This document shows, one piece after another, positions 14,008 to 42,827 of a DNA stretch of 47,807 nucleotides (position 1 is its first letter; the number at the start of each line of letters is the position of its first letter). A program made the translations under genes and the position numbers. This DNA comes from a virus, in the IMG/VR virus record IMGVR_UViG_3300042010_000231, positions 1-47,807 of that record; one strand, 5' to 3'. The notes below the pieces were generated by a model. The model did no database searches. It saw only the letters and a program-made list of their open reading frames with translations, and was not told where the DNA came from.

Positions 14008-14032
14008 AGGGAAAGCAGCAGCCAACACCTAA

Positions 14033-14079
14033 CCTGTGGCGAGGGGGCTTGCCCCCGTTGGGCTGCGCAGCGGCCCTAA
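14033..14079 (+). repeat. REP element (Pseudomonas type), copy 1
   Basis: CCTGTGGCGAGGGGGCTTGC begins a REP of the P. fluorescens type; hairpin arms are GGGGGC/GCCCCC and GGCTGC/GCAGC. It lies in the 123-bp gap between the MuF and gpG genes. A near-identical element is at 16551. REPs are chromosomal repeats mobilised by RAYT transposases and are rarely expected in phage late operons. Confidence 0.85.
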
Positions 14080-14130: not shown

Positions 14131-14607
14131 ATGTTCACCATCGAACTAGAACATCACCACCTACAACAAACCCTGAACAAAGTGGAATGGGCCATCGGCG
14201 ACCTCGCGCCACTCATGCAAGGCATCGCCGCCGAACTCGCCAACCAAACAGAAGAAAACTTCGAAAACGAAGGCCGCCCCCAATGGCCCGAACTCTCCGA
14301 CACCACCACCGAACGCCGGTCAAAAATGGGCAACTGGCCCGGCCAGATCCTACAGGTCAGTGCCGCCGGTCTGGCTGCCTCGATCACCACCCATGCCACC
14401 GACAGCTCAGCCCTGATCGGCAGCAACAAACCTTACGCAGCCATGATGCAACTCGGTGGCGACCAAGCAGACTACCCGCACCTGTGGGGCGACATTCCGG
14501 CTCGGCCGTACCTGCCGATGGACGCTGCAGGCGCACTGCAATCTCAAGCAGAGCAAGCCCTGCTTGAGCTAACGCTTTTGCATCTTGAACAGGCTGCTCG
14601 TAGCTAG
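14131..14607 (+). CDS. Phage virion morphogenesis protein (Mu gpG-like)
   Basis: 158 residues with the family segments NFENEGRPQWPELSDTTTER (about 48-67) and YAAMMQLGGDQADYPHLWG (about 106-124), then IPARPYLPM. The family is also known as the tail completion/virion morphogenesis protein gpG. It is the last gene of the first head transcription unit; the next head gene is 7.4 kb away, beyond the cargo block. Good spacing from AGAGGT to ATG. Confidence 0.88.
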   Translation: MFTIELEHHHLQQTLNKVEWAIGDLAPLMQGIAAELANQTEENFENEGRPQWPELSDTTTERRSKMGNWPGQILQVSAAGLAASITTHATDSSALIGSNKPYAAMMQLGGDQADYPHLWGDIPARPYLPMDAAGALQSQAEQALLELTLLHLEQAARS

Positions 14608-14648: not shown

Positions 14649-15899
14649 TTATTCGGGAGCCTTAACGAGCCCGGTTCCTACATCAAGTAAGTCGAAGCCG
14701 GAAACAAAGACATTATTGACTGCAGTGCCAACTAATTTACCAATCAAGGCCGAATAGCTGTATCCACCTGCATTTCTGAGCTCTTCAATCCAAAGAGCGG
14801 CCACACCAGCAACATGCGGGGCAGCCATGCTGGTGCCGCTAAGTTTTTTTACACCCCCTCCAGCTTGGGCAGAAAGAATGTCCACCCCGGGCGCTCCAAC
14901 GTTGGAGCCCACGTTTGAAAAAGGAGCAATATCAAAAGGTTGGCCATTAAGCGTTTGCTTCAAAGCAGCAACAGAAACAATTCCCTCGGCTACTGCTGGG
15001 GGACTTACACCCACTTCATACTCAGGATCTATGTTTTTTTTACTTTCATTTCCTGCTGCTGCCACAATAAGAATCTTTCTACTGCGCATCAAGGAAGCAA
15101 GTCGATCGAACATGATTACATTGGCGCGATAGCCTTCTAATGCGCGAGAAACGGCTAGCTCAGTCGGCATATGTTGCTCTAATTGCTTTACTTTTCCCGG
15201 ATAATCAATCCCCAATGACATTGAAATAATGTCCGCCCCCTGTTCGGCGGCCCATTGGATAGCGTTAACGACCTGCTCGCTATCGCCTCCTTGAGAACCG
15301 ATAACTTTGGCCACCAAAACTCTTTCTACACCCGTCGCGATGCCTATGCGGCCATAGTCACCATTGCGACCAAATATCGTTCCCGCACAATGTGTGCCGT
15401 GCCCATGAGTGTCACTAACGTCATCCTCACCATCACCATCATTGGTAAAATTACGCACAATGAACTCAATGCCTGTAAAAGCGGGGTGAGTGAGATCGAT
15501 ACCCGTATCGAGAATGGCGACTGTGACCCCCTTTCCCGTATAGGCTGATGTTGCTGCGCCCACAGCTTTCACCCCCCAGGCGATAGACTCTGCGGTCAAA
15601 GCATCGGCACTAGTTGGATACTCGACAGGGGCGATCAGTTGCACTGGCATTACCGGAGCAACCGCAACTGTTTTTGGATCGACTTTTATATCCTCGATGG
15701 AACTAACATTGAGTTCACCCACATCAACAGAAAAGTCAATTTTTTTTAGTATATTTATGTCGAAGGTTTGAGGCATATCCAGTTTGAATGGTTTGTTAGT
15801 GTCTATTGCAATCTTTTGATTTGGATCAAGCTCTTCATCGGATTGAATGACGACCTGCTTCTCGGAAAAGCCGCGGCCGTATCGGAAGTTTATGGTCAT
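14649..15899 (-). CDS. Subtilisin-like serine peptidase (S8), cytoplasmic type
   Basis: 416 residues from the ATG at 15899, which has AGGAG eight bases upstream; the frame is open 60 bp further. A novel N-terminal part of about 100 residues (acidic, beta-rich) precedes a complete S8 domain with Asp131 in AILDTGID, His167 in GHGTHCAG, oxyanion Asn284 in AAAGNES and Ser357 in LSGTSMAAPHVAG. No signal peptide is visible, so it may act inside the cell. It is opposite to the late genes and downstream of a 78-residue gene in the same operon. A pairing of peptide and protease suggests a conflict or peptide-maturation system (inference). The AT content is higher than in the phage core. Confidence 0.9.
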   Translation of the reverse strand: MTINFRYGRGFSEKQVVIQSDEELDPNQKIAIDTNKPFKLDMPQTFDINILKKIDFSVDVGELNVSSIEDIKVDPKTVAVAPVMPVQLIAPVEYPTSADALTAESIAWGVKAVGAATSAYTGKGVTVAILDTGIDLTHPAFTGIEFIVRNFTNDGDGEDDVSDTHGHGTHCAGTIFGRNGDYGRIGIATGVERVLVAKVIGSQGGDSEQVVNAIQWAAEQGADIISMSLGIDYPGKVKQLEQHMPTELAVSRALEGYRANVIMFDRLASLMRSRKILIVAAAGNESKKNIDPEYEVGVSPPAVAEGIVSVAALKQTLNGQPFDIAPFSNVGSNVGAPGVDILSAQAGGGVKKLSGTSMAAPHVAGVAALWIEELRNAGGYSYSALIGKLVGTAVNNVFVSGFDLLDVGTGLVKAPE

Positions 15900-15985
15900 G
15901 GTCGGTGACTCCTGAGCGATGGTATTGATTTCCAAACCGCCTCCGCACAGCGGAACCAAGGCCGCAACGAGTGCGGCCTTGGCAT

Positions 15986-16222
15986 TCAGCAGCCTTTATG
16001 CGTGAACCAGGCTTTGGCAGCAACCAGTACGCCTTGGCCGGCCAGTTTTCCGATAACACCAGGAATGAGCCCAACTAAAGTTCCCAAAAAACCAAGAATA
16101 AGTTCTTTGTTCTCGCAAAGAGACTCAGTACTGATATTTTGCACCTGAACGCCTCCCTGAGCGTCAAGGGCGATCATGACTTCTTTTTCGATCTGTTTGA
16201 TTGCGTCATCTGTTAAGTTCAT
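15986..16222 (-). CDS. Small Gly-rich hydrophobic peptide, protease partner
   Basis: 78 residues, preceded by CGGAG six bases from the ATG. An acidic leader (MNLTDDAIKQIEKEVMIALD) runs to a double glycine (AQGG at about 20-24); the C-terminal half (FLGTLVGLIPGVIGKLAGQG) is Gly/Ala/Val-rich and could insert in membranes, and the chain ends in Cys. The layout recalls class II bacteriocin precursors, with a leader ending in GG, but no ABC exporter is present. The subtilisin gene lies 86 bp downstream on the same strand. It could be a substrate, inhibitor, toxin or partner of the peptidase. I cannot assign a family. Confidence 0.65.
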   Translation of the reverse strand: MNLTDDAIKQIEKEVMIALDAQGGVQVQNISTESLCENKELILGFLGTLVGLIPGVIGKLAGQGVLVAAKAWFTHKGC

Positions 16223-16550
16223 TGTCGGCTCCGTTATTCTGTTTTATTTAATAACTACCAAAGATGTTGCAAAAAACAGTATGGATCCAAGATGGCTTTT
16301 TGCCCGCAATGATTTATATTATTTTGCTATATTTTCTATCGCCCGCAGCGAAAGCTAATGAGATAGCCGGGTTAATTAATGCGAGGTGAGGGTGCGGCTT
16401 TAATCTTAAGTGTCTCACTAGTGTTACATTTTGCAGTTCTGGACGTTCTACGAACTGTGTTGGCTTGAATTAGCACTCTTGCATCCAAAGCAACGCGCAC
16501 AAACAAGCCGCCCTCTTCAAAGGCAAGCCCAAACATGCGATGAGCAGAGA
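16223..16550. other. AT-rich gene-free stretch with probable leftward promoter
   Basis: No supported gene. The part next to 16222 is AT-rich and holds, on the minus strand, TTGCAA followed about 15-16 bp later by TTAAAT/TAAATA, a plausible promoter for the peptide-protease pair. The rest shows nothing clear up to the REP. Confidence 0.35.
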
Positions 16551-16600
16551 AACCTGTGGCGAGGGAACTTGCTCCCGCTGGGCCGCGCAGCGGCCCCCAA
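16551..16600 (+). repeat. REP element (Pseudomonas type), copy 2
   Basis: CCTGTGGCGAGGGAACTTGC matches copy 1 at 14033 closely and in the same orientation, again followed by the second GC stem (GGGCCGCGCAGCGGCCC). The two REPs flank gpG and the subtilisin/peptide pair, a 2.5-kb segment. Confidence 0.85.
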
Positions 16601-16635: not shown

Positions 16636-16667
16636 CACGCACGCACGCACGCACGCACGCACGCACG
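16636..16667. repeat. Tetranucleotide repeat, (CACG) x 8
   Basis: Eight perfect tandem CACG units, 14 bp beyond the stop of the DUF6124 gene at 16682. Long perfect tetranucleotide tracts mutate by slippage. Here it is non-coding, so any effect would be on mRNA 3' structure or on read-through. Confidence 0.85.
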
Positions 16668-16681
16668 ACAGCAGACCGCAC

Positions 16682-17041
16682 CTATTCAGGTGGGTCCATC
16701 AGATCCAGTAATCGGTTTGCCGTGATTTCAGCCAGCATGACGTTATTGGCAATGCCCAACAGGGAATAGCGCGAGCCACCATCCAAGCGGTCCACCAACT
16801 CGTGGACCATCACATCAATCGAAGCCAGGGTTTCGACCAGATGCACCGTTAGGGTTTCGGTCGTGGCCTCTGCGTCCACGGAAAACAGGGTGCTGCGTGT
16901 TCGCGGGGTGGCTTTGATGTCGGCAATCGACGGGAAGTGGAAGTTCAGAGCCCGCTCGGCGGCCTCGTTGAGCTTCTTTGAATCGGGTTCATACGGGGAG
17001 ACCGGATCAGTGTCCGGCGGATTGGGTGTGACCTTGAACAT
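16682..17041 (-). CDS. DUF6124 family protein, copy 1
   Basis: 119 residues starting MFKVTPNPPDTDPVSPYEPD, the usual start of this Pseudomonas family. A long helical core follows (LNEAAERALNFHF; TLTVHLVETLASIDVMVHEL; LLGIANNVMLAEITANRLLD). The paralogue at 35172 starts with the same MFKVTPNPP and keeps the same helices. Function unknown. The ATG at 17041 has AGGAG nine bases upstream and is preceded by a long structured leader that is conserved between the copies, so expression is probably controlled at the RNA level. Confidence 0.85.
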   Translation of the reverse strand: MFKVTPNPPDTDPVSPYEPDSKKLNEAAERALNFHFPSIADIKATPRTRSTLFSVDAEATTETLTVHLVETLASIDVMVHELVDRLDGGSRYSLLGIANNVMLAEITANRLLDLMDPPE

Positions 17042-17361
17042 GGTGAAACTCCTAGAGAAAAGGAGCTGCCGCCATTCGCTGCGAAACGAAAAAAGGTGGC
17101 AACTGTACGCGGGTTCGCAGACCAGGACTCTAGGAACCCGGCAGACCCTAAGGCCTCCCACGCACAGCCGCCATGACATGAATGACAGACCTAATGAAGC
17201 GTCTGCTCACGGACGGTAGACGTTGTGCGTCTAGAGTTTACCCGGGCTGCGAAACCCGATCACTGATGGGCAGTGACACGAATCAAGTTACCGAGCGGCC
17301 CCAAGGCGCACAAGCCGGCGGATTCTGGCGCAGCCGTAGGCAACGGCGCAAGGTCTTGTAG
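17042..17361 (-). ncRNA. Structured leader RNA, copy A
   Basis: On the minus strand this runs from GCTACAAGACCTTGCG to the DUF6124 start. Blocks shared with copies B and C include CAGAATCCGC, the hairpin TCACTG/CAGTGA and CGGGTTT..CCCG. A long-range helix can form between GGGTTTCGCAG (opposite 17247-17257) and TCTGCGAACCC (opposite 17111-17121); copy C has different bases in both strands that still pair. No ORF is needed to explain the conservation. It could be a cis-regulatory leader or a separate small RNA. Confidence 0.6.
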
Positions 17362-17643: not shown

Positions 17644-19044
17644 ATGGGGCAGATTAACGAATTTCCATTTGAAAGCAATTTCATACCACTATCCAAAAAA
17701 GGGAAAAGCTCAAAATCCAACACGTTCTCCGTACTCATAGGGAAAAACGGTGTAGGAAAGAGCCGGCTTTTATCAGACATCGCAGAGAACTATTCAAAAA
17801 AAATATTTGAGGAAGATGCTTTCTATTTTGATGATGGGTTCACACCTTCAAAAATTCTCGCAATTTCAACTAGCCCCTTCGACAAATTCCAAACTACAAA
17901 AACAAATATAAAGCAATGGGAAAACCGATATCACTATGTAGGCATGAAAGGCTCACTGGCGTACTCAAACAATGCCATGGCTCTTATATCGTCCGCAGCC
18001 AAAGGCCTTTTAAACAAATGTCTAAAATCAACTAGAACAAATAATCTCGAAGAGCTTTTTAGTCTTTTGCATCTTGAAAAAAACCTAACATTTATTTTTA
18101 AGTTAAATATAAAGCCACACTTAGAAGTAGCGCAAAAGCCATCAGCAAAAAAATATATTCTAGACTATGAGACGACTGGTATTGATTTGTTCAATTACCA
18201 AGGCGCCCCAAGCGACGATGCTTTTAGAGAGCTGCTCGAAGATCGGGCCTATGAGGCATACATAAAGTCGAGCCAGACCGTTAAAAAGGAAATTGCCAAA
18301 TCTCTAACCTATGTGTGGGGGCATTTGGAAACAAAGAAAAACGCATTATTCGGCCTGAATTTTGATTATCGAAATAGATTTTCCAAGGGGTTCCTTGACA
18401 AGGAAATGGTTGAGTCGGTTCTAGCATTGCTCAATTCTGGAATAGTGAGATTGCTTGACTTAAAGCTTCGAAAAATAAAAAACAAAAAAGAAGAGTTTCA
18501 GGAATTATCACTTAGGCGTGCTAGCTCTGGCGAGCAATGCCTTCTAGTTATCATGCTTGGTATTGCAGGGCTAATAGAAGATAATGCTCTAATACTAATT
18601 GATGAGCCAGAAATCAGTTTACACCCTTCATGGCAAGAAAAATTTATGAACTTGCTGATGACCGTTTTTTCTGACTATAACGGATGCCATTTTATTATTG
18701 CAACACACTCACCACAAATAGTATCTCGTCTTGCCGCTGAAAACTGCTTCATTACCATAATGGGCGAAAACAAAATGTACTCAGCATCCGAGTACTTTCA
18801 CAGATCAGCAGATTATCAATTAGCCGAGCTGTTCGACGCCCCTGGAATAATGAATGAATATGTTACGCGATTAGCATTCAATCTTCTCTCAAAGGTAAAA
18901 ACGCATAAAGGTGTCGACTTCAAAGACCAAGCAGAAATGAAAAAGCTAGAAAGCATATTGAATAAACTTGACTCCGAAGACCCTAATTACGAGCTATTGA
19001 CATCCGTAATTGACACATGCGTATTTTTTATGGATAGGGGTTAA
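17644..19044 (+). CDS. AAA+/ABC-type ATPase of a Septu-like defence pair
   Basis: 466 residues. Walker A GKNGVGKS (33-40), an ABC signature-like ASSGEQC (about 293-299), Walker B ALILIDEPE with Asp320/Glu321, and the H-loop IIATHSP near 355. This is the OLD/RecF/PtuA type ATPase. The gene directly downstream, four bases away, encodes an HNH nuclease, which is the PtuA-PtuB arrangement of Septu anti-phage systems. In Septu the ATPase forms a multimeric sensor that holds the nuclease. Unlike the phage core it is AT-rich, so it was acquired. The start at 17644 has a weak ribosome-binding site, and coding-like sequence extends upstream without a start codon. Confidence 0.82.
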   Translation: MGQINEFPFESNFIPLSKKGKSSKSNTFSVLIGKNGVGKSRLLSDIAENYSKKIFEEDAFYFDDGFTPSKILAISTSPFDKFQTTKTNIKQWENRYHYVGMKGSLAYSNNAMALISSAAKGLLNKCLKSTRTNNLEELFSLLHLEKNLTFIFKLNIKPHLEVAQKPSAKKYILDYETTGIDLFNYQGAPSDDAFRELLEDRAYEAYIKSSQTVKKEIAKSLTYVWGHLETKKNALFGLNFDYRNRFSKGFLDKEMVESVLALLNSGIVRLLDLKLRKIKNKKEEFQELSLRRASSGEQCLLVIMLGIAGLIEDNALILIDEPEISLHPSWQEKFMNLLMTVFSDYNGCHFIIATHSPQIVSRLAAENCFITIMGENKMYSASEYFHRSADYQLAELFDAPGIMNEYVTRLAFNLLSKVKTHKGVDFKDQAEMKKLESILNKLDSEDPNYELLTSVIDTCVFFMDRG

Positions 19045-19047
19045 ATA

Positions 19048-19692
19048 ATGCCTCTCATTAGAAATCACTTTGTATACGAAAATGATGAGCTGGCGTTAAT
19101 CAGAGCGAAGAAGCTTGAGGGGTTTACACACCACGACTGGAGTCATGAGACTCTTATGTCATTAAGATCTCGAATTCGAGATTTTTACAGGAGAGAGCAA
19201 AATGGACATTGTGCATACTGCATGCAGACTATATCTCTTCAAGCCGCCGCAAATGCTCAAGTAGAGCACATACTCCCAAAATCAAAACATGAAGCATTCA
19301 TATTTGAAGTAAAAAATCTTTGTGTGATTTGTGCCGACTGCAACCAGGCTAAAGGTGCAAAAAATGCTCTTATTGGCGAGGAGATTGATACTGTCCAGAA
19401 TCTACCCCGCCGTTATCCGACTAGTTCTGCTAGATTTCTGATTATTCATCCTGCCATTGATGTGTATCGCGAGCATATCGCCATCAATGGTAAGATTTAT
19501 ATAGACCTTACTCCAAAGGGGCACTTCACGATAGGGACTTGTAACCTCAATAGATTTACGCAGAAATTTGGCATCGAGCAATCAATGCTTGATGATTACG
19601 GTATATTCCAACTACTTGAAAGTTATTCAAGTGGAGGGGCGCAAGAAAAGCGGAATGCCTTCGAGAGAATTAGAGAGTTGCGCGGAGGGTAA
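19048..19692 (+). CDS. HNH endonuclease of a Septu-like pair
   Basis: 214 residues. Zinc-site cysteines CAYC (55-58) and CADC (95-98) bracket an HNH core with VEHILPKSKH (72-81) and ADCNQAKG (96-103), the pattern of PtuB-like nucleases. It would degrade DNA when released or activated by the ATPase. AGGGG lies seven bases before the ATG. An AT hairpin CAAAAAC/GTTTTTG at 19702-19727 follows and may be a weak terminator. Confidence 0.85.
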   Translation: MPLIRNHFVYENDELALIRAKKLEGFTHHDWSHETLMSLRSRIRDFYRREQNGHCAYCMQTISLQAAANAQVEHILPKSKHEAFIFEVKNLCVICADCNQAKGAKNALIGEEIDTVQNLPRRYPTSSARFLIIHPAIDVYREHIAINGKIYIDLTPKGHFTIGTCNLNRFTQKFGIEQSMLDDYGIFQLLESYSSGGAQEKRNAFERIRELRGG

Positions 19693-19800
19693 AATTTAAA
19701 TCAAAAACATGATTGAATTTGTTTTTGGTACGTGGCCACCTGCCGAGCGACGATACTGCAGAAACTTTCATCATCTAAATAAATATAAGTGCCGAGAGCA

Positions 19801-20664
19801 ATGGACAAAACATTACATACACCTTGGGAGCTCCTTGCCGGAAGTCCAGTATTAGATGCCGTGCTATCAGACTGGACAAATCTTTTAGCGGACAAATCTC
19901 AACTGGAGCTAGCATATCAGACGTTCCTAAAACGTCACGCAGGGATGTTCTTTCCATCTATGCCTTTACATGATGAGATTATTTTGTCAGGTCTCAAGCT
20001 TGGAGCGGACCACGAGGTGGATTTTGTTATGGCTCACAGCGAAAGAAGCTTGGGATTTATTTATACGTTGATTGAGATTGAAACACCGCATGATACTGCT
20101 TTCACAAAAGCTGGTGATCCTAGGGCTCGCCTGAGTCATGCAATTCAACAAACGAATGATTGGAAGTCGTGGTTAGAAGAAAATCGCGATCAGGTTCAAC
20201 GACTGTTCCCCTCTAAGAGGCTGAGAGTGACAGGCAAAACCCACTTTCGCTATATGGTGATCATGGGCAGAAGGTCTGATGAATTCAATGAAAGAAGGAA
20301 TGCGTGGTCCGAAACAACTGGCGTTCAAATTCGGTCTTTTGATTGGTTTACTGATAATCTACTCAACAAGCAATTTCACTCTTTCAATTCGTATGCCTCG
20401 GACATAATTAAGCCGAGTTACGAAGAAGACAATCAGTTCACCAATCCTTTTGCCGTTGCATACACAGATGCCGACTGGCGCAAAATAGTTGATGATCCAA
20501 GGCTAACATTAAGTCATATGGTTGGGCACAACCTAGAAATTTTAGCAAAACACCGTACTTATAATCGTGATCGCTGGAATCCATTTATTGATTATATAAA
20601 CTCACTTCCGGGCAGCCTGCTTTTCCCATCCGAAAGGGAGTATTGGAGAATGAGTCATAGGTGA
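19801..20664 (+). CDS. Shedu-like DUF4263 nuclease
   Basis: 287 residues from the ATG at 19801 (a GTG at 19789 is possible; neither has a strong ribosome-binding site). The DUF4263 domain, a PD-(D/E)xK nuclease used by Shedu defence, shows HEVDFVMA (Asp74), YTLIEIETP (Glu92/Glu94) and a downstream ARLSHAIQQTNDWKSWLEEN helix. In many members the motif is ExK; here it reads ExE-T, a variant I believe also occurs in the family. It stands alone, next to Septu, so it is either a single-gene Shedu or a third element of the island. Confidence 0.75.
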   Translation: MDKTLHTPWELLAGSPVLDAVLSDWTNLLADKSQLELAYQTFLKRHAGMFFPSMPLHDEIILSGLKLGADHEVDFVMAHSERSLGFIYTLIEIETPHDTAFTKAGDPRARLSHAIQQTNDWKSWLEENRDQVQRLFPSKRLRVTGKTHFRYMVIMGRRSDEFNERRNAWSETTGVQIRSFDWFTDNLLNKQFHSFNSYASDIIKPSYEEDNQFTNPFAVAYTDADWRKIVDDPRLTLSHMVGHNLEILAKHRTYNRDRWNPFIDYINSLPGSLLFPSEREYWRMSHR

Positions 20665-20738: not shown

Positions 20739-21587
20739 ATGATTTTAGAAGTTATGGTGCAGGCTGTTGATTTTTTACATTCGATACCGGATGTGATTTG
20801 GTCAGGAATCATAGCTTCCGGGCTGACTTTGAGTGGTGTATTAATATCTAACAGGAGCAACACGAAGCGGTTGAGGATGCAGTTAATGCATGATTCTGCC
20901 GAGAAATCACAGGAGCGGATAACAAGTATTCGACGTGAGGTTTATTTGCGCGCAGCGGACGAAGCGCATAAAACAATCAGGCACTTCGTCAATTTACCCT
21001 ACATAAATTTGGCGGAGACGAATCCATCAGAGGAACTTCACGGCTTTTATTCTATATTGTCAAAGCTGAAGCTTGTCGCGGAGCCGAGCACCTTATCTCT
21101 AGTGACTGAGTTGGATGCAGAGTGCAATAGGCTCTTTGTGAGATTGCTGATGGAGGTCCAACCGATACAAGATGCACGTACTAATTTATTAGGATTTGAG
21201 GAGAACCGTGATTTTTTCAATAAGAAGGCGGTAGAAACGTTCGCAGAGATAAAAATCCTCAGCGAAAGTGCTAATCCCGACACCCTACGTTTAGACGCGT
21301 TAATGAAAGATCATAAAAACTATTTGTTGATAGTCGCTGCGCATGAGCAAACCCGAAAAGATCAACAGGAAGAGTTGGATGGTCTTCTCAAGGCGTACAG
21401 TCATGTAATTTATCCTGAGCTGGCGCCATTTGGAAAGCTTTTGATTCAGATAGAAATAGAGATGCGCGGCGAGCTTGGACTGACAACAGATGTTGTTGCC
21501 TATGCAGCGCAAATGGACCGACAACGAGTTGAATTAGGGGATTTGCTCGAAAGAACTCTAGAGTCAATACATTCATCGGATAAATGA
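20739..21587 (+). CDS. Membrane-anchored helical protein, unknown
   Basis: 282 residues. One N-terminal membrane helix (about 18-38, VIWSGIIASGLTLSGVLIS) is followed by a long helical cytoplasmic region with a coiled coil (AEKSQERITSIRREVYLRAA). GGGG lies five bases before the ATG. Proteins with a single TM and helical body are common in defence islands, but I do not recognise the family. It may belong with the Shedu-like gene 74 bp upstream. Confidence 0.7.
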   Translation: MILEVMVQAVDFLHSIPDVIWSGIIASGLTLSGVLISNRSNTKRLRMQLMHDSAEKSQERITSIRREVYLRAADEAHKTIRHFVNLPYINLAETNPSEELHGFYSILSKLKLVAEPSTLSLVTELDAECNRLFVRLLMEVQPIQDARTNLLGFEENRDFFNKKAVETFAEIKILSESANPDTLRLDALMKDHKNYLLIVAAHEQTRKDQQEELDGLLKAYSHVIYPELAPFGKLLIQIEIEMRGELGLTTDVVAYAAQMDRQRVELGDLLERTLESIHSSDK

Positions 21588-21927: not shown

Positions 21928-21981
21928 CCATCCCAACCAAAACTTCAAGCTCTGCACATTCCCTCTATGCAGCGCACCGCC

Positions 21982-23001
21982 ATGAAACCCCTCCACATCT
22001 TCAAACCCGGCACCCACACCGCCATGTGCGGCACCAGCTTCAACTTCACCGAATCCGACCTAACCGCCACCGTCGCCGCCTACAACCCATCGCTCCACGA
22101 AGCCCCCATGGTCATCGGCCACCCCCAGCACGACGCCCCAGCCGCCGGCTGGATCAAATCCCTGTCATCCACCGCCCAAGGCCTGATCGCCGAGTCCCAG
22201 CAAGTCGACGCCACCTTCGCCGAGCAAATCGCCAAAGGCAGCTACAAAAAAATCTCCGCCTCCTTCTACCACCCAGACGCCGCCAACAACCCCGTGCCCG
22301 GCGTCTACTACCTGCGCCATGTCGGCTTCCTCGGCGCCCAGCCGCCATCAGTGAAAGGCCTACGCCCCATCGAACTGGCCGACGACGAACAAGGCGTCAT
22401 CCAGTTCAGCGACCACGGCCACTACCTCAGCGCCGACCTCTGGCGCCGCTTCCGCGAATGGCTCATCGGCCAGTTCAACAAAGACACCGCCGACCAGGTC
22501 GCCCCGTCGTGGGCCATCGACAGCCTCGCCGAAACCGCCCGCCAGCCAGAACAGCCCCTGCAGACCGCCTTCTCAGAACCCACCCAAACCCCACAGGTCA
22601 CCCACATGCCCGAGCAAGACACCGCCGCCCTAGAGGCAGAAAACAAACGCCTGAAAGCAGACATCGCCCTGCGTGATAACGCGGCTCGCATGGCGGCGCA
22701 AAGCGCCATCCACACCGCCAGCGTCGACTACGCCGAGAAGCTGGTAGCGGCAGGCATGAAGCCCGTTCACGCACCAGCAGTCATCGCTGCACTGGACTAC
22801 GCCGAGTCCAGTCAATCGCCGTTGGAATTCGGCGAAGACGACGCCCGTCAGCCCTTGAGCGAAGGCCTCAAAGCCATCTTCAAAGACCTGGCCGGCGGCA
22901 TCAGCTTCGCCGAAGTCGCCACCAAATCCCGCGCTGACGACACCACCAAACCAGCCACCAACCCATTACTCGCCGACGCCGAAGCCCGCGCCCAACGATA
23001 G
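21982..23001 (+). CDS. Prohead protease with C-terminal scaffold (Mu gpI-like)
   Basis: 339 residues starting MKPLHIFKPGTHTAMCG. The N-terminal 150 residues match the Mu gpI type: FTESDLTATVAAYNP, APMVIGHPQHDAPAAGWI, and IAKGSYKKISASFYHPD, whose Ser is the likely nucleophile. The C-terminal part from about 205 is acidic and helical (EAENKRLKADIALRDNAARM) and fits a scaffold that is cleaved off. ATG at 21967 is an alternative start, in the same frame; neither has a convincing ribosome-binding site. It is the first gene of the late unit after the cargo block. Confidence 0.88.
   Translation: MKPLHIFKPGTHTAMCGTSFNFTESDLTATVAAYNPSLHEAPMVIGHPQHDAPAAGWIKSLSSTAQGLIAESQQVDATFAEQIAKGSYKKISASFYHPDAANNPVPGVYYLRHVGFLGAQPPSVKGLRPIELADDEQGVIQFSDHGHYLSADLWRRFREWLIGQFNKDTADQVAPSWAIDSLAETARQPEQPLQTAFSEPTQTPQVTHMPEQDTAALEAENKRLKADIALRDNAARMAAQSAIHTASVDYAEKLVAAGMKPVHAPAVIAALDYAESSQSPLEFGEDDARQPLSEGLKAIFKDLAGGISFAEVATKSRADDTTKPATNPLLADAEARAQR
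22606..23001 (+). CDS. Nested scaffold protein (internal start in protease gene)
   Basis: An in-frame ATG at 22606, preceded by AGGTCACCCAC, would give 131 residues starting MPEQDTAALEAENKRLKADI. Mu makes its scaffold (gpZ) from an internal start in gene I, and lambda does so in gene C. The start context here is plausible but not strong. Confidence 0.45.
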   Translation: MPEQDTAALEAENKRLKADIALRDNAARMAAQSAIHTASVDYAEKLVAAGMKPVHAPAVIAALDYAESSQSPLEFGEDDARQPLSEGLKAIFKDLAGGISFAEVATKSRADDTTKPATNPLLADAEARAQR

Positions 23002-27597: not shown

Positions 27598-28368
27598 TTA
27601 GGCATTCTTCAAGAACGCAGCAATTTCTACCTCTTTGGCCTTGGAGAACACCCAGCCTCCTAGTGTGTTATTCCATCGCCCACCAAGATCCTTCAGTTGA
27701 TCTTTCAACTTCTTCGTATCGCCTTTGACAACAAATGACTTCACTTGGCCGTCCTTTTCGTAGTCCTCCATGAAGACCTTGTCTTCTTTGAGAATCTTTT
27801 TCAGGGTCGCGACCTTTTCCTTGACCTCTTTGGGCGTTGGAGGCACGGCTGGTAGTCCGCGAAGCAACCCACGAACATTTATTGAAATTTGGTTGAGAAG
27901 CTGTTCCTTGAAATCTGTGATGCTATTGTAGGATCCAGTCAAACCCAATTTCTGCATCTTTTTCTCGAATTCTTTCAACGACTTATACTGATCAATGTCC
28001 AGGTTTTTAGGGTCGATGTTTCGAGATGAAAAATAGACCATTACCGGCTTTTGGTTTTCGATGAACCATTCGATCTCTTCTGCTGTGCCACTCTCGCTGA
28101 CTCCGGTAGGTGAGCCAAGTCTTGTCCAGAAAACACCGATGACCATGTCGCAGGTAGTAACGATTTGACTGTTGATAACCCCTTGAGCACGATCCCCTAG
28201 CAGTGGTGCCGAGTGCGTTTCCCATTTCACAGGAAGGAGCACCACATTATTCGTCTGAGCATTGTTATTGTTCCAACGAGAGATAACCTCTGGTATTGCC
28301 TCACGTTCTTCGTCAACGTCGCCAGGGCTTGCGATTAGTATTTTGAACACCTTTGCATCGAAGGACAT
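27598..28368 (-). CDS. TIR/DUF4062-like effector domain protein
   Basis: 256 residues. The N-terminal 130 residues have the pattern of DUF4062-like, TIR-related Rossmann domains: KILIASPGDVDEEREAIPEV, LLPVKWETHSAPLLGDRAQG, CDMVIGVFWTRLGSPTGV and SGTAEEIEWFIENQKPVMVY. Such domains recur as effectors or sensors in bacterial conflict systems. The C-terminal 50 residues (FVVKGDTKKLKDQLKDLGGR, then WNNTLGGWVF) form a small domain also seen attached to nucleic-acid enzymes. It is divergent from the CHAT gene, with 638 bp between. Family naming is from memory; the catalytic Glu is tentatively in EEIEW. Confidence 0.7.
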   Translation of the reverse strand: MSFDAKVFKILIASPGDVDEEREAIPEVISRWNNNNAQTNNVVLLPVKWETHSAPLLGDRAQGVINSQIVTTCDMVIGVFWTRLGSPTGVSESGTAEEIEWFIENQKPVMVYFSSRNIDPKNLDIDQYKSLKEFEKKMQKLGLTGSYNSITDFKEQLLNQISINVRGLLRGLPAVPPTPKEVKEKVATLKKILKEDKVFMEDYEKDGQVKSFVVKGDTKKLKDQLKDLGGRWNNTLGGWVFSKAKEVEIAAFLKNA

Positions 28369-29006: not shown

Positions 29007-32000
29007 ATGGTTGACACGGAACCGCAGTCCACGCCAGCTGTTGTTGGATTTGATCCTTGGTCAGTTTTAGCCGAAATCACACTGGGTAGCATGGGGCTAT
29101 TGCTAGGCGGGATCTCGAGTAAGGTTCTCGGACGACTGCTTAACAAAAGCCTCGGCTTGCGATACGCCGAGACGAGCAATGAGGTCTTTACAGGCTTTAC
29201 TGTCGTCCTCCCTCCGAAAGGTGCTACCGCCCTCAGCGAACAGACGGTCTTCAATGCGTTATCCGCTGCTTTCATGGAGCTTGACGGCATCGAGCTTAAA
29301 GATACGCACTTGGCCAAATTTCGTAGTTCCATTGAAGTAGTGCACTCACCCTCACTTCAGATCCCTGATCTGGTAGCTGTAGTGAATATTGTGGGACGCA
29401 ACCACTTCATTTTTGTCGCCGAAGCTGGCAAGTACAGATCCAATGATGTGCATCTTCCACCAATCTTTGGGGTGTCTGCCGTACGTTCACCCGAAGGTAT
29501 CTGGGTGCGACATGTCGCAATCTTGGGGCAAAAACTCGTGTCCGCCGCCCAATCAGGTGAGGGTTACGTCTTTGTACATGTCACTGAAGCGCCACCGCAG
29601 AGGGTTGAAGCCCAAGCCCTATTACAAGAGATCGACTGCGACATCTGGCATGCCGAAATTGAGGGTGGTAACCGGGAACAAGAAGTCAGTCGTAATGCTG
29701 AGAGATGGGTAAAGATGGCTGTTTTGGGGTTGATCGATGAAATCCGAGATGAAATCGAAGCGCTGGCGCTAGATGACCTCACAAAAAAGCATCTACTTGC
29801 CCAGTTACTTGATCGCTCAGGCAAAGAGGATGAACTCCTTTCGGTTATTGGCGAAATGTTGGGTAGTGTTGCGGCACTGACAGCAATGCAAAGAATCCAG
29901 CTTTCTACTTTTGCTATCAAAGCAGGAAGCCTCACCACTGCAATGGATTTACTCGCTGAGGGGGTAGAGGGTCTTACTGAGGAAGAATGGTTTGAGAAGG
30001 CGTTGGATGTGGCAATGCGGCTGCGCTCCAACGACCTCATCGTTAAAATTGACGAGCAGATGTCCTCTCTGTTTCCAGCTTCAGCGATATTAAGGGAAAA
30101 TCGCGATAGGCGATTGCTTCTAAACTGTCACTTGGCATCCAGCAAGGAATTTGAGTTCTCAATTTCTGGCTTTTCAGATAGGCATGAACTCCTTTGGGCG
30201 GGACTCAAAGGGGCGGACGCTGTGTACGACCAAGTTCTTCGGATGACTTCTAAGTGGGAAACAGATTGGCAGGAGCTGGCATCAATCTGCTGCGCAGCAC
30301 ATGCTCAATCGATCGGTAAAAATCGAGATGCAGTAGAAATGGCGGTTTCTGTGGCCACTTCGAAGACGTATGGACGGCAAGCTTCCCGGATACTCCTGTC
30401 TTCTGTTCGACGCATGATGCTCAAGCAAGAAGTAGCCTCTAGTGAAAGCGATTACTATCGACAACCTTTGGCGGCAGTGATCAGATATTTGGCTCAACAC
30501 CCCCAAGATGAGCAAACACGAACCTCACTTACTTCACTCTTAACAGTGGAAGCATGCGGTGAGATCGCCGTTCCTGTGGCTGCAATTCTTGCACTAGATT
30601 TGGCTAGTGAAGGTGTACGACTCGCTAAGCCCCTATTTTTAAAAAGTGATAAGGAAGAATCGCGCCAGAGCACTTCAGAGTATTTGCCGAGCCCTCCTGA
30701 GTTCGAACGGGTAAAATATGACGCGGAATTTAAGCTAGTAGTGGAGTCCGGTCTACGATGGCTTAGTCAACAGCTGGCAACAGAGCCGGGAGTAACCCGC
30801 CTACCGGTTGAGCTAGTGGGAGTTGATCCGAATAACATCGTTCATCAACTAGTGAGCCTCATCCATCATAACGGCTCACATGGGCCAGAAGACACCGACC
30901 TCGAATTCCTAGAGAAAATGGTCCAATTGACGTGCGCAATTGCGCCATACGCAGACAATGAGCGCAATGGAGACCTTAGTGTAATGCGTCTCCTCGCCTG
31001 TCAGTCCGTGTTATGCGGTTCTGCACAGCACGCACGAAATCTTTGCGAACAGATTCTGTTGATGGGCCAAGAAAGCCCTCTTAGGAAACGACTTGCTTGG
31101 GCGGCGTTTGCGGATGTTTATCACCGCTGTCGCAAGCCAGTCGAGGCACTGATCGGTGTAGCTTGTGCTATGGCTACGGATTCTGAGGTCGGAGCTGCCG
31201 ATCTTTGGCAGGAAATTCATACCCTGATTCGTGTGTTGCGGGATCTTGGACAGATTTCATTGGCTCGAAAGCTAATACCCGTTATGAAGCAACTCCTTGA
31301 GCAACTCGGGTATGATCCTGAAAGCGATCTGCGCGTGATCACGTTGGAACTGAGCCTCCAACTGTTTGAAGTGCGTGACACACAGATTGCCGAGCTTAGT
31401 AATTTGGCCGAGACCATGGCCTCCAATTGCGAAGCTGTTCTCGAGCGCCCCAACTATCTGGTGCCTGCTGTGACGCTATTGGCCCAGATTGTGTTGAAGT
31501 GTGACTCCGTTGCTGCGCCAGTCAATGATCACTCTCGAAAAATTTTAGCTACGGCATTGACGCGTATTGGGGCAGATCTCGCTCAATTTGTGTCGACTGT
31601 TTCCTCTATTTCGCCGACACCTGCTCACGTCCTCGCAATGTACAACAAAGTCCATAGAGCAGTTTCGACAAGGGATGCTCCAGCAGACTTTGTTCCCGTT
31701 ACGATTGCAGCGCGGCGACTTTTAGATGGAACGAAAGATAAGCCCCCAGAGCCCGAGGTTTCATCCCTTGCAACGGAAATACTGGCGGAGCAAGGAGTTG
31801 AGCTGGTCGGTGATCTACCGTTGCTTACTTTCGGCTGGCCATTGGCATATGCACAAGAGCTCAGCCGTAGCGGTTTAGAGGTGGTTTTTCTTTCATTGAA
31901 CAGCCAGGGAGAGCTGTTAGTCACGCACGTGGTTCAAGGTGAGGTTCATCAGATTGAACAACTCCAAGGTGACAGATCGTTTCTCAAACGGATGCAAGTG

Positions 32001-32861
32001 TGGATCGAGGACTATCCAAAGGGATATGGACTCGTTGACGCGTGCGACGGAAATGATGAGTTCTATGACTCAATGGAAAGGCTTGGTGCAAAGGTTGCCT
32101 CGGAGGGGGAGCTGTTAATAATCGCCGAGCCGATGCTACAGCAACTTGCGATGAATCTTATAGTGGTAGAGCCGCTTGTGGGCTTTAGTTATTTTCTAGG
32201 CTCGAAGGCTGCTGTCGGCGCCACCCCTTCACTAAGGTGGTTATCTCAAGTGCGGGGAAGCGCCCGTAAGGGGCGTGGAGGTTACAAGGCGTGGATCTCC
32301 GCAGAGGAAAGCTCGTTCGATGGGGGAGCCTTAGGCTTAGTCTTGGATCGCCTTAAAGACACGTTCGCCCAGTATGACTTTGCTGTCGACACCGGGCGCA
32401 AGCTACCGCTTGATGTCTCGGATGCAAGCCTGGTGGTTGCCTGTGCTCACGGAGGGTTGACCAGTAGCGGCAAATTCATCCACACCATTAGCGACGAAGA
32501 TAATCTAGTCGAATCTCCCGGAGCACTTGCCCAAGCCTTAAGAGGGGTGGAGTTAGTGATTCTGTTCGTTTGCAGCGGCGGTCGTCTCGACAAACATCCC
32601 TTCGATAACTCTACGGTTGGACTACCTAAACAGTTGCTAAATCAGGGCTGTCGAGCTGTTGTGGCGTCCCCATGGCCGCTCGATGTCAAGGTTACTTACA
32701 ACTGGCTCGGCCCGTTCATGCAGGCTTGGGAAGCCGGCGAAACAGTTTTGAGCGCGACCAAAATGGCGAATGATGCGGTTACTTTGAGTTTGGGAGACCA
32801 CCCACAGTACGGCTTGGCAATGGCTGTCTATGGCGACGTGTTGCTGAACAAGCAAACGTAG
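29007..32861 (+). CDS. Membrane CHAT-domain caspase-like protease
   Basis: 1284 residues. An N-terminal hydrophobic segment (about 20-38, VLAEITLGSMGLLLGGISS) could anchor it. A region to about 230 follows, then roughly 700 residues of helical repeats that look TPR/ARM-like (for example ARNLCEQILLMGQESPLRKR, ARKLIPVMKQLLEQLGY). The C-terminal CHAT domain (about 950-1284) has the dyad His1148 in VVACAHGG and Cys1189 in LFVCSGG, then LLNQGCRAVVASPWPLD, all classic for CHAT. CHAT proteases act in type III CRISPR (Craspase) and gasdermin or TPR-CHAT defence. Here it lies beside a TIR-like protein in phage cargo. GC is lower than the core. AAGGAAAG precedes the ATG. Confidence 0.88.
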   Translation: MVDTEPQSTPAVVGFDPWSVLAEITLGSMGLLLGGISSKVLGRLLNKSLGLRYAETSNEVFTGFTVVLPPKGATALSEQTVFNALSAAFMELDGIELKDTHLAKFRSSIEVVHSPSLQIPDLVAVVNIVGRNHFIFVAEAGKYRSNDVHLPPIFGVSAVRSPEGIWVRHVAILGQKLVSAAQSGEGYVFVHVTEAPPQRVEAQALLQEIDCDIWHAEIEGGNREQEVSRNAERWVKMAVLGLIDEIRDEIEALALDDLTKKHLLAQLLDRSGKEDELLSVIGEMLGSVAALTAMQRIQLSTFAIKAGSLTTAMDLLAEGVEGLTEEEWFEKALDVAMRLRSNDLIVKIDEQMSSLFPASAILRENRDRRLLLNCHLASSKEFEFSISGFSDRHELLWAGLKGADAVYDQVLRMTSKWETDWQELASICCAAHAQSIGKNRDAVEMAVSVATSKTYGRQASRILLSSVRRMMLKQEVASSESDYYRQPLAAVIRYLAQHPQDEQTRTSLTSLLTVEACGEIAVPVAAILALDLASEGVRLAKPLFLKSDKEESRQSTSEYLPSPPEFERVKYDAEFKLVVESGLRWLSQQLATEPGVTRLPVELVGVDPNNIVHQLVSLIHHNGSHGPEDTDLEFLEKMVQLTCAIAPYADNERNGDLSVMRLLACQSVLCGSAQHARNLCEQILLMGQESPLRKRLAWAAFADVYHRCRKPVEALIGVACAMATDSEVGAADLWQEIHTLIRVLRDLGQISLARKLIPVMKQLLEQLGYDPESDLRVITLELSLQLFEVRDTQIAELSNLAETMASNCEAVLERPNYLVPAVTLLAQIVLKCDSVAAPVNDHSRKILATALTRIGADLAQFVSTVSSISPTPAHVLAMYNKVHRAVSTRDAPADFVPVTIAARRLLDGTKDKPPEPEVSSLATEILAEQGVELVGDLPLLTFGWPLAYAQELSRSGLEVVFLSLNSQGELLVTHVVQGEVHQIEQLQGDRSFLKRMQVWIEDYPKGYGLVDACDGNDEFYDSMERLGAKVASEGELLIIAEPMLQQLAMNLIVVEPLVGFSYFLGSKAAVGATPSLRWLSQVRGSARKGRGGYKAWISAEESSFDGGALGLVLDRLKDTFAQYDFAVDTGRKLPLDVSDASLVVACAHGGLTSSGKFIHTISDEDNLVESPGALAQALRGVELVILFVCSGGRLDKHPFDNSTVGLPKQLLNQGCRAVVASPWPLDVKVTYNWLGPFMQAWEAGETVLSATKMANDAVTLSLGDHPQYGLAMAVYGDVLLNKQT

Positions 32862-35171: not shown

Positions 35172-35540
35172 ATGTTCAAAGTTACGCCTAACCCCCCCAA
35201 TACCGGTCCAGTACCCTACGACGCCTTTATTGATCTTGACCCCAAGAAAATGAAAGAGGCGGCCGACCGCGCACTCAGCTTCTACCTGAACCCCGGGGCG
35301 ATGAAAACGCAGATACCGCCCCACAGGCCCAGCACCATTTTCACCATCGACGCAGCGGTGGATGACGAAACGTTGCTCGTCGAGGCTTGCGAATCGTTGG
35401 CATCAGCCAGCGCCATGGTCAACGATCTCGTCGACTTGACGGACGACCCACGACGCCAAACGATGCTGGTACTGCAACGGGTCATCATGCTGGGTGAGTT
35501 AGCGGTCAATCGCGTACTGGATAACCACAAGCCTGGGTAG
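35172..35540 (+). CDS. DUF6124 family protein, copy 2
   Basis: 122 residues starting MFKVTPNPPNTGPVPYDAF. Compared with copy 1 the N-terminal nine residues are identical and the helical core is alignable (KMKEAADRALSFYL; LLVEACESLASASAMVNDLV; MLGELAVNRVLDN). Function unknown. It is preceded by leader copy C and followed by a terminator, so it is a self-contained unit. Confidence 0.85.
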   Translation: MFKVTPNPPNTGPVPYDAFIDLDPKKMKEAADRALSFYLNPGAMKTQIPPHRPSTIFTIDAAVDDETLLVEACESLASASAMVNDLVDLTDDPRRQTMLVLQRVIMLGELAVNRVLDNHKPG

Positions 35541-42085: not shown

Positions 42086-42220
42086 TTACGGATTCTTGGG
42101 CGGCGGCGCTGGTGCCCTTTCATTGGTTGGGCTTGGGGCATAACCGCCTTTTACTGGATCGCGGTCTCGCTTGCTTGGTTGGTAGCCCTTCTCTGAACCG
42201 CCACTTTCTCTATTCTTCAT
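42086..42220 (-). CDS. Proline-rich microprotein paired with DUF6338
   Basis: 44 residues from the ATG at 42220 with AGGAG eight bases upstream. MKNRESGGSEKGYQPSKRDR starts the chain, which ends in APAPPPKNP. The start overlaps the DUF6338 stop by 11 bp, so translation is coupled. The frame is open for 33 codons upstream, but those lie inside the DUF6338 gene. Disordered; probably a partner of the membrane protein. Confidence 0.65.
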   Translation of the reverse strand: MKNRESGGSEKGYQPSKRDRDPVKGGYAPSPTNERAPAPPPKNP

Positions 42221-42827
42221 CGCCACTCTCCTGTGGGTGATTAAGGTGAAACAGCTCAAGTGTAGCGATTTCTTTAGCAAGGATGATGATGCCCGCAGAA
42301 TCACTTCTGGCCCTTTCAAATCCGCCTCCTTCGCTCAACACCCACGCTTCTTGAAGGTAAATTTGCTCCGATGCCGGGCTGCTCGAAGCGAAAGATTTCG
42401 AGTCGTAGAGTCCAGCCACCTGGCGTCCATCATTCAGCGTAGCGATCACCCAGTAAGGAACTCGCTGACTGAAGACGAAATCCCATGGTTTGCCGGTCGG
42501 GTGTGCAATTGACCGCTGCAGAAGTTGTGTTTTCCTCAGCCATAAAAATAGCCACGCCCACGCGATGGGTGCGACGAGCAGCACGACGACATAAAAAAGG
42601 ACATACAACGTTGGGTAACTGGACCTGAGGTTGAGGTGTTCAACCGCGTAAATCGGGCCCATCAGTAAGGCGTAATTGATGGAGCTGTACGCAACGGCAT
42701 CGACCAATTGTTGTGATGTGTCTTTGACCTGCGTCGGCTGAAGAAGCGCATATGTCTTTAGACTGATGAAGCCAGGGACTACGAATGCGATGAATAAAAA
42801 TAGCTTGTCGACTTCCCAAATGTCCAT
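42210..42827 (-). CDS. DUF6338 family membrane protein
   Basis: 205 residues starting MDIWEVDKLFLFIAFVVPGF. Three or four membrane segments (about 8-28, 46-66, 75-97), then a beta-rich cytoplasmic domain with GKPWDFVFSQRVPYWVIATL and GRQVAGLYDSKSFAS, ending QESGDEE. The DUF6338 match is from memory of the opening PGFISLKTYALL. It is cargo between gpV and gpW, on the strand opposite to the late genes, so it is probably expressed in the lysogen and may act in exclusion. Confidence 0.78.
   Translation of the reverse strand: MDIWEVDKLFLFIAFVVPGFISLKTYALLQPTQVKDTSQQLVDAVAYSSINYALLMGPIYAVEHLNLRSSYPTLYVLFYVVVLLVAPIAWAWLFLWLRKTQLLQRSIAHPTGKPWDFVFSQRVPYWVIATLNDGRQVAGLYDSKSFASSSPASEQIYLQEAWVLSEGGGFERARSDSAGIIILAKEIATLELFHLNHPQESGDEE

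Follow-up and report, generated by a model that had tools for sequence, protein, structure and literature searches.

The prophage analysed here carries a gene for a 78 aa peptide and, next to it, a gene for a subtilisin-like (S8) protease. Both are real genes; they are paired, they lie as cargo antisense to the late genes of the phage and beside defence genes, and they probably act together in defence. For the more specific reading that they form a two-gene conflict module, in which the peptide is the target of a protease gated by its own pro-domain and would in turn act at a membrane through its hydrophobic hairpin, we put the probability at about 40%. The window, by which we refer to the whole stretch of DNA that was analysed, is a virus record of 47,807 bases whose gene set (transposase, minor head, neck, head protease, tail sheath) is that of a Mu-like prophage, and the host genome carrying it is Pseudomonas-type. 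The features that define the surroundings of the pair are as follows.

14031-14076, plus strand: second REP copy, beyond the neck gene
14131-14607, plus strand: neck/tail-completion gene (phrog_26), left border of the cargo site
16551-16596, plus strand: REP element of the Pseudomonas type, on the peptide side
17644-19692, plus strand: complete Septu PtuA-PtuB pair (PtuA 3.2e-130, PtuB 2.6e-67), in the same cargo site as the S8/peptide pair
19789-20664, plus strand: Shedu SduA-like protein, 3' of Septu, in the same cargo site
21967-23001, plus strand: head maturation protease gene (phrog_976), right border of the cargo site

From a level of about 62%, the GC content drops to 37–50% across most of the stretch from the neck gene to the head protease gene, and in the phage Komp_PAO1_1 the corresponding position holds an antisense gene for a 709 aa protein (L100, 5112-7241, minus strand), for which no Pfam or PADLOC match was obtained. 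Based upon the drop in GC content and this antisense gene in the corresponding place, the stretch is taken to be a cargo site. The S8 and peptide genes are the first genes in it, and both are on the minus strand, opposed to the plus-strand late genes as the earlier note had observed; they are followed by a DUF6124 gene (minus strand), Septu and the Shedu-like gene. The pair had also been described as flanked by REPs. Two REP copies, 89% alike, are indeed present in the window, but the left one is separated from the pair by the neck gene.

Other features of the window were also recorded. A (CACG)n simple repeat (16636-16667) adjoins the REP element on the peptide side. Paralogues of the DUF6124 type are found at 16682-17044 (minus strand) and 35172-35540 (plus strand), one per cargo region, the family match having been run on the first of these. 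The 282 aa protein encoded by 20739-21587 (plus strand), which lies at the right-hand end of the first cargo site, matched nothing in Pfam or PADLOC. A gene for a 1284 aa protein with a C-terminal CHAT domain (29007-32861, plus strand) is found in a second low-GC cargo stretch, and the DUF4062-like gene at 27598-28368 (minus strand) matches the N-terminal 200 residues of the candidate defence family PDC-S60. Lastly, a DUF6338 gene (42210-42827, minus strand) lies antisense within the tail region, and its location is probably a third cargo site.

The pair itself comprises the following features.

14649-15899, minus strand: S8 subtilase of 416 aa (Pfam Peptidase_S8, PF00082, E=4.8e-44)
15620-15899, minus strand: N-terminal region of the protease (residues 1-93), predicted beta-beta-alpha-beta and pro-domain-like
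15908-15913, minus strand: ribosome-binding site of the protease, AGGAGT
15955-15983, minus strand: 12-bp hairpin between the two genes, without a T tract, in a region that folds better than shuffles (z -3.2)
15986-16222, minus strand: 78 aa peptide gene, 86 bp upstream of the protease
16229-16232, minus strand: ribosome-binding site of the peptide, GGAG

These coordinates and the exact gap agree with those given previously, and the numbering of the catalytic serine as S357 is likewise right, as translation from the ATG at 15899 yields 416 aa with D131, H167 and S357 as the triad. These three residues and the oxyanion residue N284 were invariant in an alignment of 26 rows. The N-terminus shows no hydrophobic signal, and hence the description of a complete S8 protease lacking a signal peptide holds; judging from its sequence, the S8 protease is cytoplasmic. 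Consistent with the absence of a signal peptide, the nearest solved structures of the catalytic domain include intracellular subtilisins (Bacillus ISP; PDB 7y6m and 7xr8). The claim that the enzyme has a novel N-terminal domain stands in so far as residues 1-93 have no sequence match, to an I9-type pro-domain or otherwise, in Pfam or PDB, but the predicted fold and the position of this region are those of a subtilisin pro-domain. In the AlphaFold2 model (mean pLDDT 85), nearly the whole chain is covered by the best Foldseek match, which is unprocessed pro-subtilisin E (419 columns), and we read residues 1-93, by inference from this model, as a reduced pro-domain.

The peptide consists of an acidic N-terminal helix (residues 5-21), a flexible linker (residues 22-31) and two hydrophobic helices (residues 39-52 and 56-76), which in the AlphaFold2 model, built from a two-row alignment (pLDDT about 74, residues 23-28 of low confidence), form a helical hairpin. 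No family was found for it in Pfam, NCBIfam, PADLOC or PHROG, the best Pfam match (E=0.14) being below the cut-off, and Foldseek of the model against PDB and BFVD gave nothing significant. Its sole homologue is in Aquincola tertiaricarbonis (L046, 1178-1411), where a peptide that is 45% identical over its full length is encoded; the hydropathy over 19 residues is 1.9 in the window copy and 1.8 in the Aquincola copy. The mismatches between the two genes at codon positions 1, 2 and 3 number 38, 20 and 56, and 22 of the 34 identical residues are encoded by different codons. Both copies are hence real coding genes, and the coding signature whose lack, according to the earlier note, would count against its proposal is present. 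The residues C36 and C78 and the motifs LVGLxPGVIGKLAG and AAxxWF are kept in both peptides. The double glycine, near which cleavage had been suspected, is not conserved, as the homologue has GD in place of the GG of the window peptide, and this leaves the double-glycine idea without support.

Aside from these two, the peptide appears to be very rare. No other convincing copy was detected in about 1,190 further distinct genomes, the samples examined being partly overlapping sets of 398 Pseudomonadaceae, 399 and 401 Burkholderiales-group and 369 Gammaproteobacteria genomes; neither was any detected in 16 genomes that contain relatives of the S8 protease. Searches of the IMG/VR viral contigs using the peptide, the two-row peptide alignment or a DNA pattern for PGVIGKLAG revealed no true relative, and the single match to this pattern was dismissed because no such ORF exists there. 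A tblastn search with the peptide against plasmids and phages found none. Weak genome matches were judged to be due to chance, as one of them (L095) overlaps house-keeping genes in an antisense frame and the other three (L096, L099 and L094) have scores at or near chance level. The small ORFs beside other S8 relatives were mostly non-coding when inspected by eye, and none of them matched the peptide profile.

In Aquincola, the peptide gene is found about 31–32 bp upstream of an S8 gene of the same clade, in the same order and orientation. This locus came to light in a search with the protease, independently of the peptide, which was scanned only afterward against the relatives; the co-occurrence of the two genes extends to a second genus. 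The Aquincola pair is flanked by ordinary host genes, and its S8 frame is interrupted by a frameshift in the draft contig. Two peptide-protease pairs, in two genera, are therefore known. As the peptide is so rare, and yet is found twice in the same order beside the same protease clade, a chance pairing is unlikely. However, the two proteases are not sisters: in a tree of 31 rows they are separated by a branch with 99/95 support, and forcing them into one clade was borderline rejected (AU p=0.046). This leaves two histories, namely two separate associations of the peptide with this clade, or an old pair that has since been mostly lost. The hairpin between the two genes, for which no counterpart is seen in the short Aquincola gap, is a possible attenuator or mRNA stabiliser, and by inference it could lower the expression of the protease relative to that of the peptide.

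Relatives of the protease with about 45–55% identity are found in Proteobacteria, Bacteroidota, Actinomycetota, Acidobacteriota, Cyanobacteria, Planctomycetota and Chlorobiota. Common to the clade are an insert that follows the SLG motif and, at the N-terminus, the short pattern YIILR...ELxxxxxxLxRDPxVxAVAPxMPxKLI. Scans of viral contigs with the protease and with the clade alignment detected no true relatives, which makes the copy in the prophage exceptional. Of 66 genes tested that lie beside or close to S8 relatives, seven matched CHAT, seven trypsin-like peptidases, three caspases and three NucA endonucleases. Judged against the general rarity of CHAT, caspase and NucA genes, rather than a background count, this is considered an enrichment. 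Clade copies on plasmids also adjoin caspase, CHAT, TIR and trypsin genes. Within the Pseudomonadaceae the clade is present in only 3/398 genomes (E<=1e-60). In Azotobacter the S8 gene is preceded by a gene for a trypsin-endonuclease I protein and by one for a further trypsin, while in two other Pseudomonadaceae (L104, 4860-9472; L105, 4956-9573) an S8 protein of 392–395 aa is encoded by the third gene of an operon with IetA and IetS (PADLOC 5.2e-75 and 3.7e-48, respectively, in L104, to which L105 is 82–86% identical), a three-gene form that was not found in the literature searched. Conflict or defence neighbours are thus seen at all four loci of the Pseudomonadaceae type, including that in the window, and the S8 clade is conflict-associated in that its neighbours are often conflict genes. 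The CHAT protein of the window showed weak similarity to, and no specific kinship with, the CHAT proteins beside S8 relatives. On plasmids, a sister lineage of S8 proteases carries an ORF of 74–80 aa directly behind the protease (L009, 4884-5126; L010, 4917-5156; L011, 3869-4093; L012, 3864-4091). These ORFs, as far as their sequences indicate, read like a stand-alone subtilisin propeptide or inhibitor, and the three tested for a Pfam family (L009, L010 and L011) had no match.

The clade neighbours, together with the local Septu and Shedu cargo, support reading the pair as a conflict module, which as cargo of a Mu-like prophage would probably be of an anti-phage or abortive-infection type. In the mechanism that we propose, the two genes would be co-transcribed, and the S8 enzyme, made in the cytoplasm, would be folded and then held by its own short pro-domain. 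A trigger would render the protease active, and it would then cut the peptide, most plausibly in the flexible linker of residues 22-31, so that the C-terminal hydrophobic hairpin is freed and may act at the inner membrane. The predicted anatomy of the peptide, with this linker preceding the hydrophobic hairpin, and the peptide-first gene order fit the idea of a substrate that is converted to a membrane toxin. Counting against the substrate model, no cleavage site is conserved between the two peptides (GG vs GD), only two pairs are known, their proteases are not sisters, that of Aquincola is frameshifted in its draft contig, and the peptide lacks a fold match.

The chief rival to this reading has the protease as the toxic component, restrained or anchored by the peptide. 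A toxin-antitoxin-like arrangement, with an S8 toxin and, encoded ahead of it, a small acidic protein whose binding would keep the toxin in check for as long as that protein is present, is in our estimate unlikely. An antitoxin-first gene order is common, with which the peptide-first arrangement agrees, and relatives on plasmids have the small ORF directly behind the protease. Additionally, the toxicity of cytoplasmic subtilases is proven for AAA-ATPase/subtilase modules, IetS and the mycoplasma subtilase T133 having been shown to be toxins whose antitoxins are AAA ATPases (PMC8562856). However, the peptide is hydrophobic and predicted to be all-helical, unlike the known subtilisin inhibitors, and most members of the clade lack the peptide and yet keep a pro-domain-like region of their own. 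The enzyme thus needs no peptide for its restraint, and for this reason an effector role for the peptide is favoured over that of an antitoxin. A part for the peptide as membrane anchor or co-regulator, by which the protease would be positioned or triggered and would itself supply the effector activity by cleaving host or phage proteins, is similarly improbable in our view. Although conflict peptidases are known to have small co-occurring partners (Trypco1/2 next to trypsins; PMC7159879) and the predicted hydrophobic hairpin could serve as an anchor, the peptide has no recognised adaptor domain and other clade members do without it.

The remaining alternatives are less probable still. That the two are independent cargo genes, adjacent by happenstance, we consider quite improbable: the lack of the peptide beside most S8 relatives, the existence of just two pairs and the non-sister proteases would agree with it, but the same order and orientation and the short gaps recur in two genera, and the peptide has no confident match elsewhere. 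A bacteriocin-like precursor matured by a LanP-type subtilase is very improbable. An acidic, leader-like N-terminus ahead of GG and a hydrophobic core is suggestive of one, some S8 enzymes mature peptides, and the protease has a weak PatA/PatG subfamily match; nonetheless, the homologue lacks GG, the neighbouring genes showed no transporter, modification or immunity gene, and double-glycine leaders are substrates of C39 peptidases rather than S8 enzymes. A role as a holin or in lysis was set aside because the homologue lies outside any recognisable phage region and the window gene opposes the late operon. Thus, the two-gene module, with the peptide as substrate and effector, is the reading that we prefer.

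Compared with known systems, the pair shows both similarities and differences. As in IetAS, which acts as a toxin-antitoxin pair and against phage, a cytoplasmic S8 protease is present in a defence locus, but IetAS contains the AAA ATPase IetA, whereas none is beside the window protease, where the 78 aa peptide takes the partner's place; IetS is also about 750 aa in length versus 416 aa here, and the match to the IetS model is weak and partial (7.4e-05 over 50 residues). In System 3 (NucA-trypsin-subtilisin), S8 and trypsin are coupled to an effector whose release by proteolysis has been proposed, and clade members elsewhere adjoin trypsin, trypsin-NucA and trypsin-endonuclease genes, but no trypsin, nuclease or EAD1 is beside the window pair, its candidate effector being a small hydrophobic peptide. 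Bacterial gasdermins are encoded together with proteases and damage membranes after cleavage, and the same logic, with a predicted cleavage, is proposed for the window pair; in contrast to them, the window peptide, 78 aa long and predicted to be all-helical, lacks a gasdermin fold and has no fold match. The intracellular subtilisins, the nearest solved relatives of the catalytic domain, are cytoplasmic as well, but the window enzyme differs from them in its N-terminal region, the helical insert after SLG and its context of conflict genes. The LanP/PatA peptidases with double-glycine bacteriocins likewise place an S8 enzyme beside a small GG-bearing peptide; here, however, GG is not conserved and the window ORFs include no C39/ABC exporter or modification genes. 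By the features tested, the pair is outside the IetAS, System 3, gasdermin and bacteriocin families.

The view that the pair constitutes an undescribed conflict system is therefore partly supported. The pair, which was not found described in the literature searched, is new as a rare variant, but peptidase-driven conflict systems are known as a kind, since peptidase cascades with S8 members, and with proposed proteolytic release of effectors, were described earlier (Kaur et al., 2020; PMC7159879). A broader proposal, which we offer tentatively and which may well prove wrong, is that the pair is a minimal protease-activated membrane effector and the clade a plug-in peptidase used across IetAS, trypsin-nuclease and CHAT/caspase loci. 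If our reading is true, the pair would be a very small case, of two genes, in which a bacterial membrane effector is activated by proteolysis, and attention would be drawn to an unnamed subtilase clade that occurs beside several unrelated defence systems, including as the third gene of IetAS. It would also amount to a concrete claim as to what S8 enzymes do in bacterial immunity.
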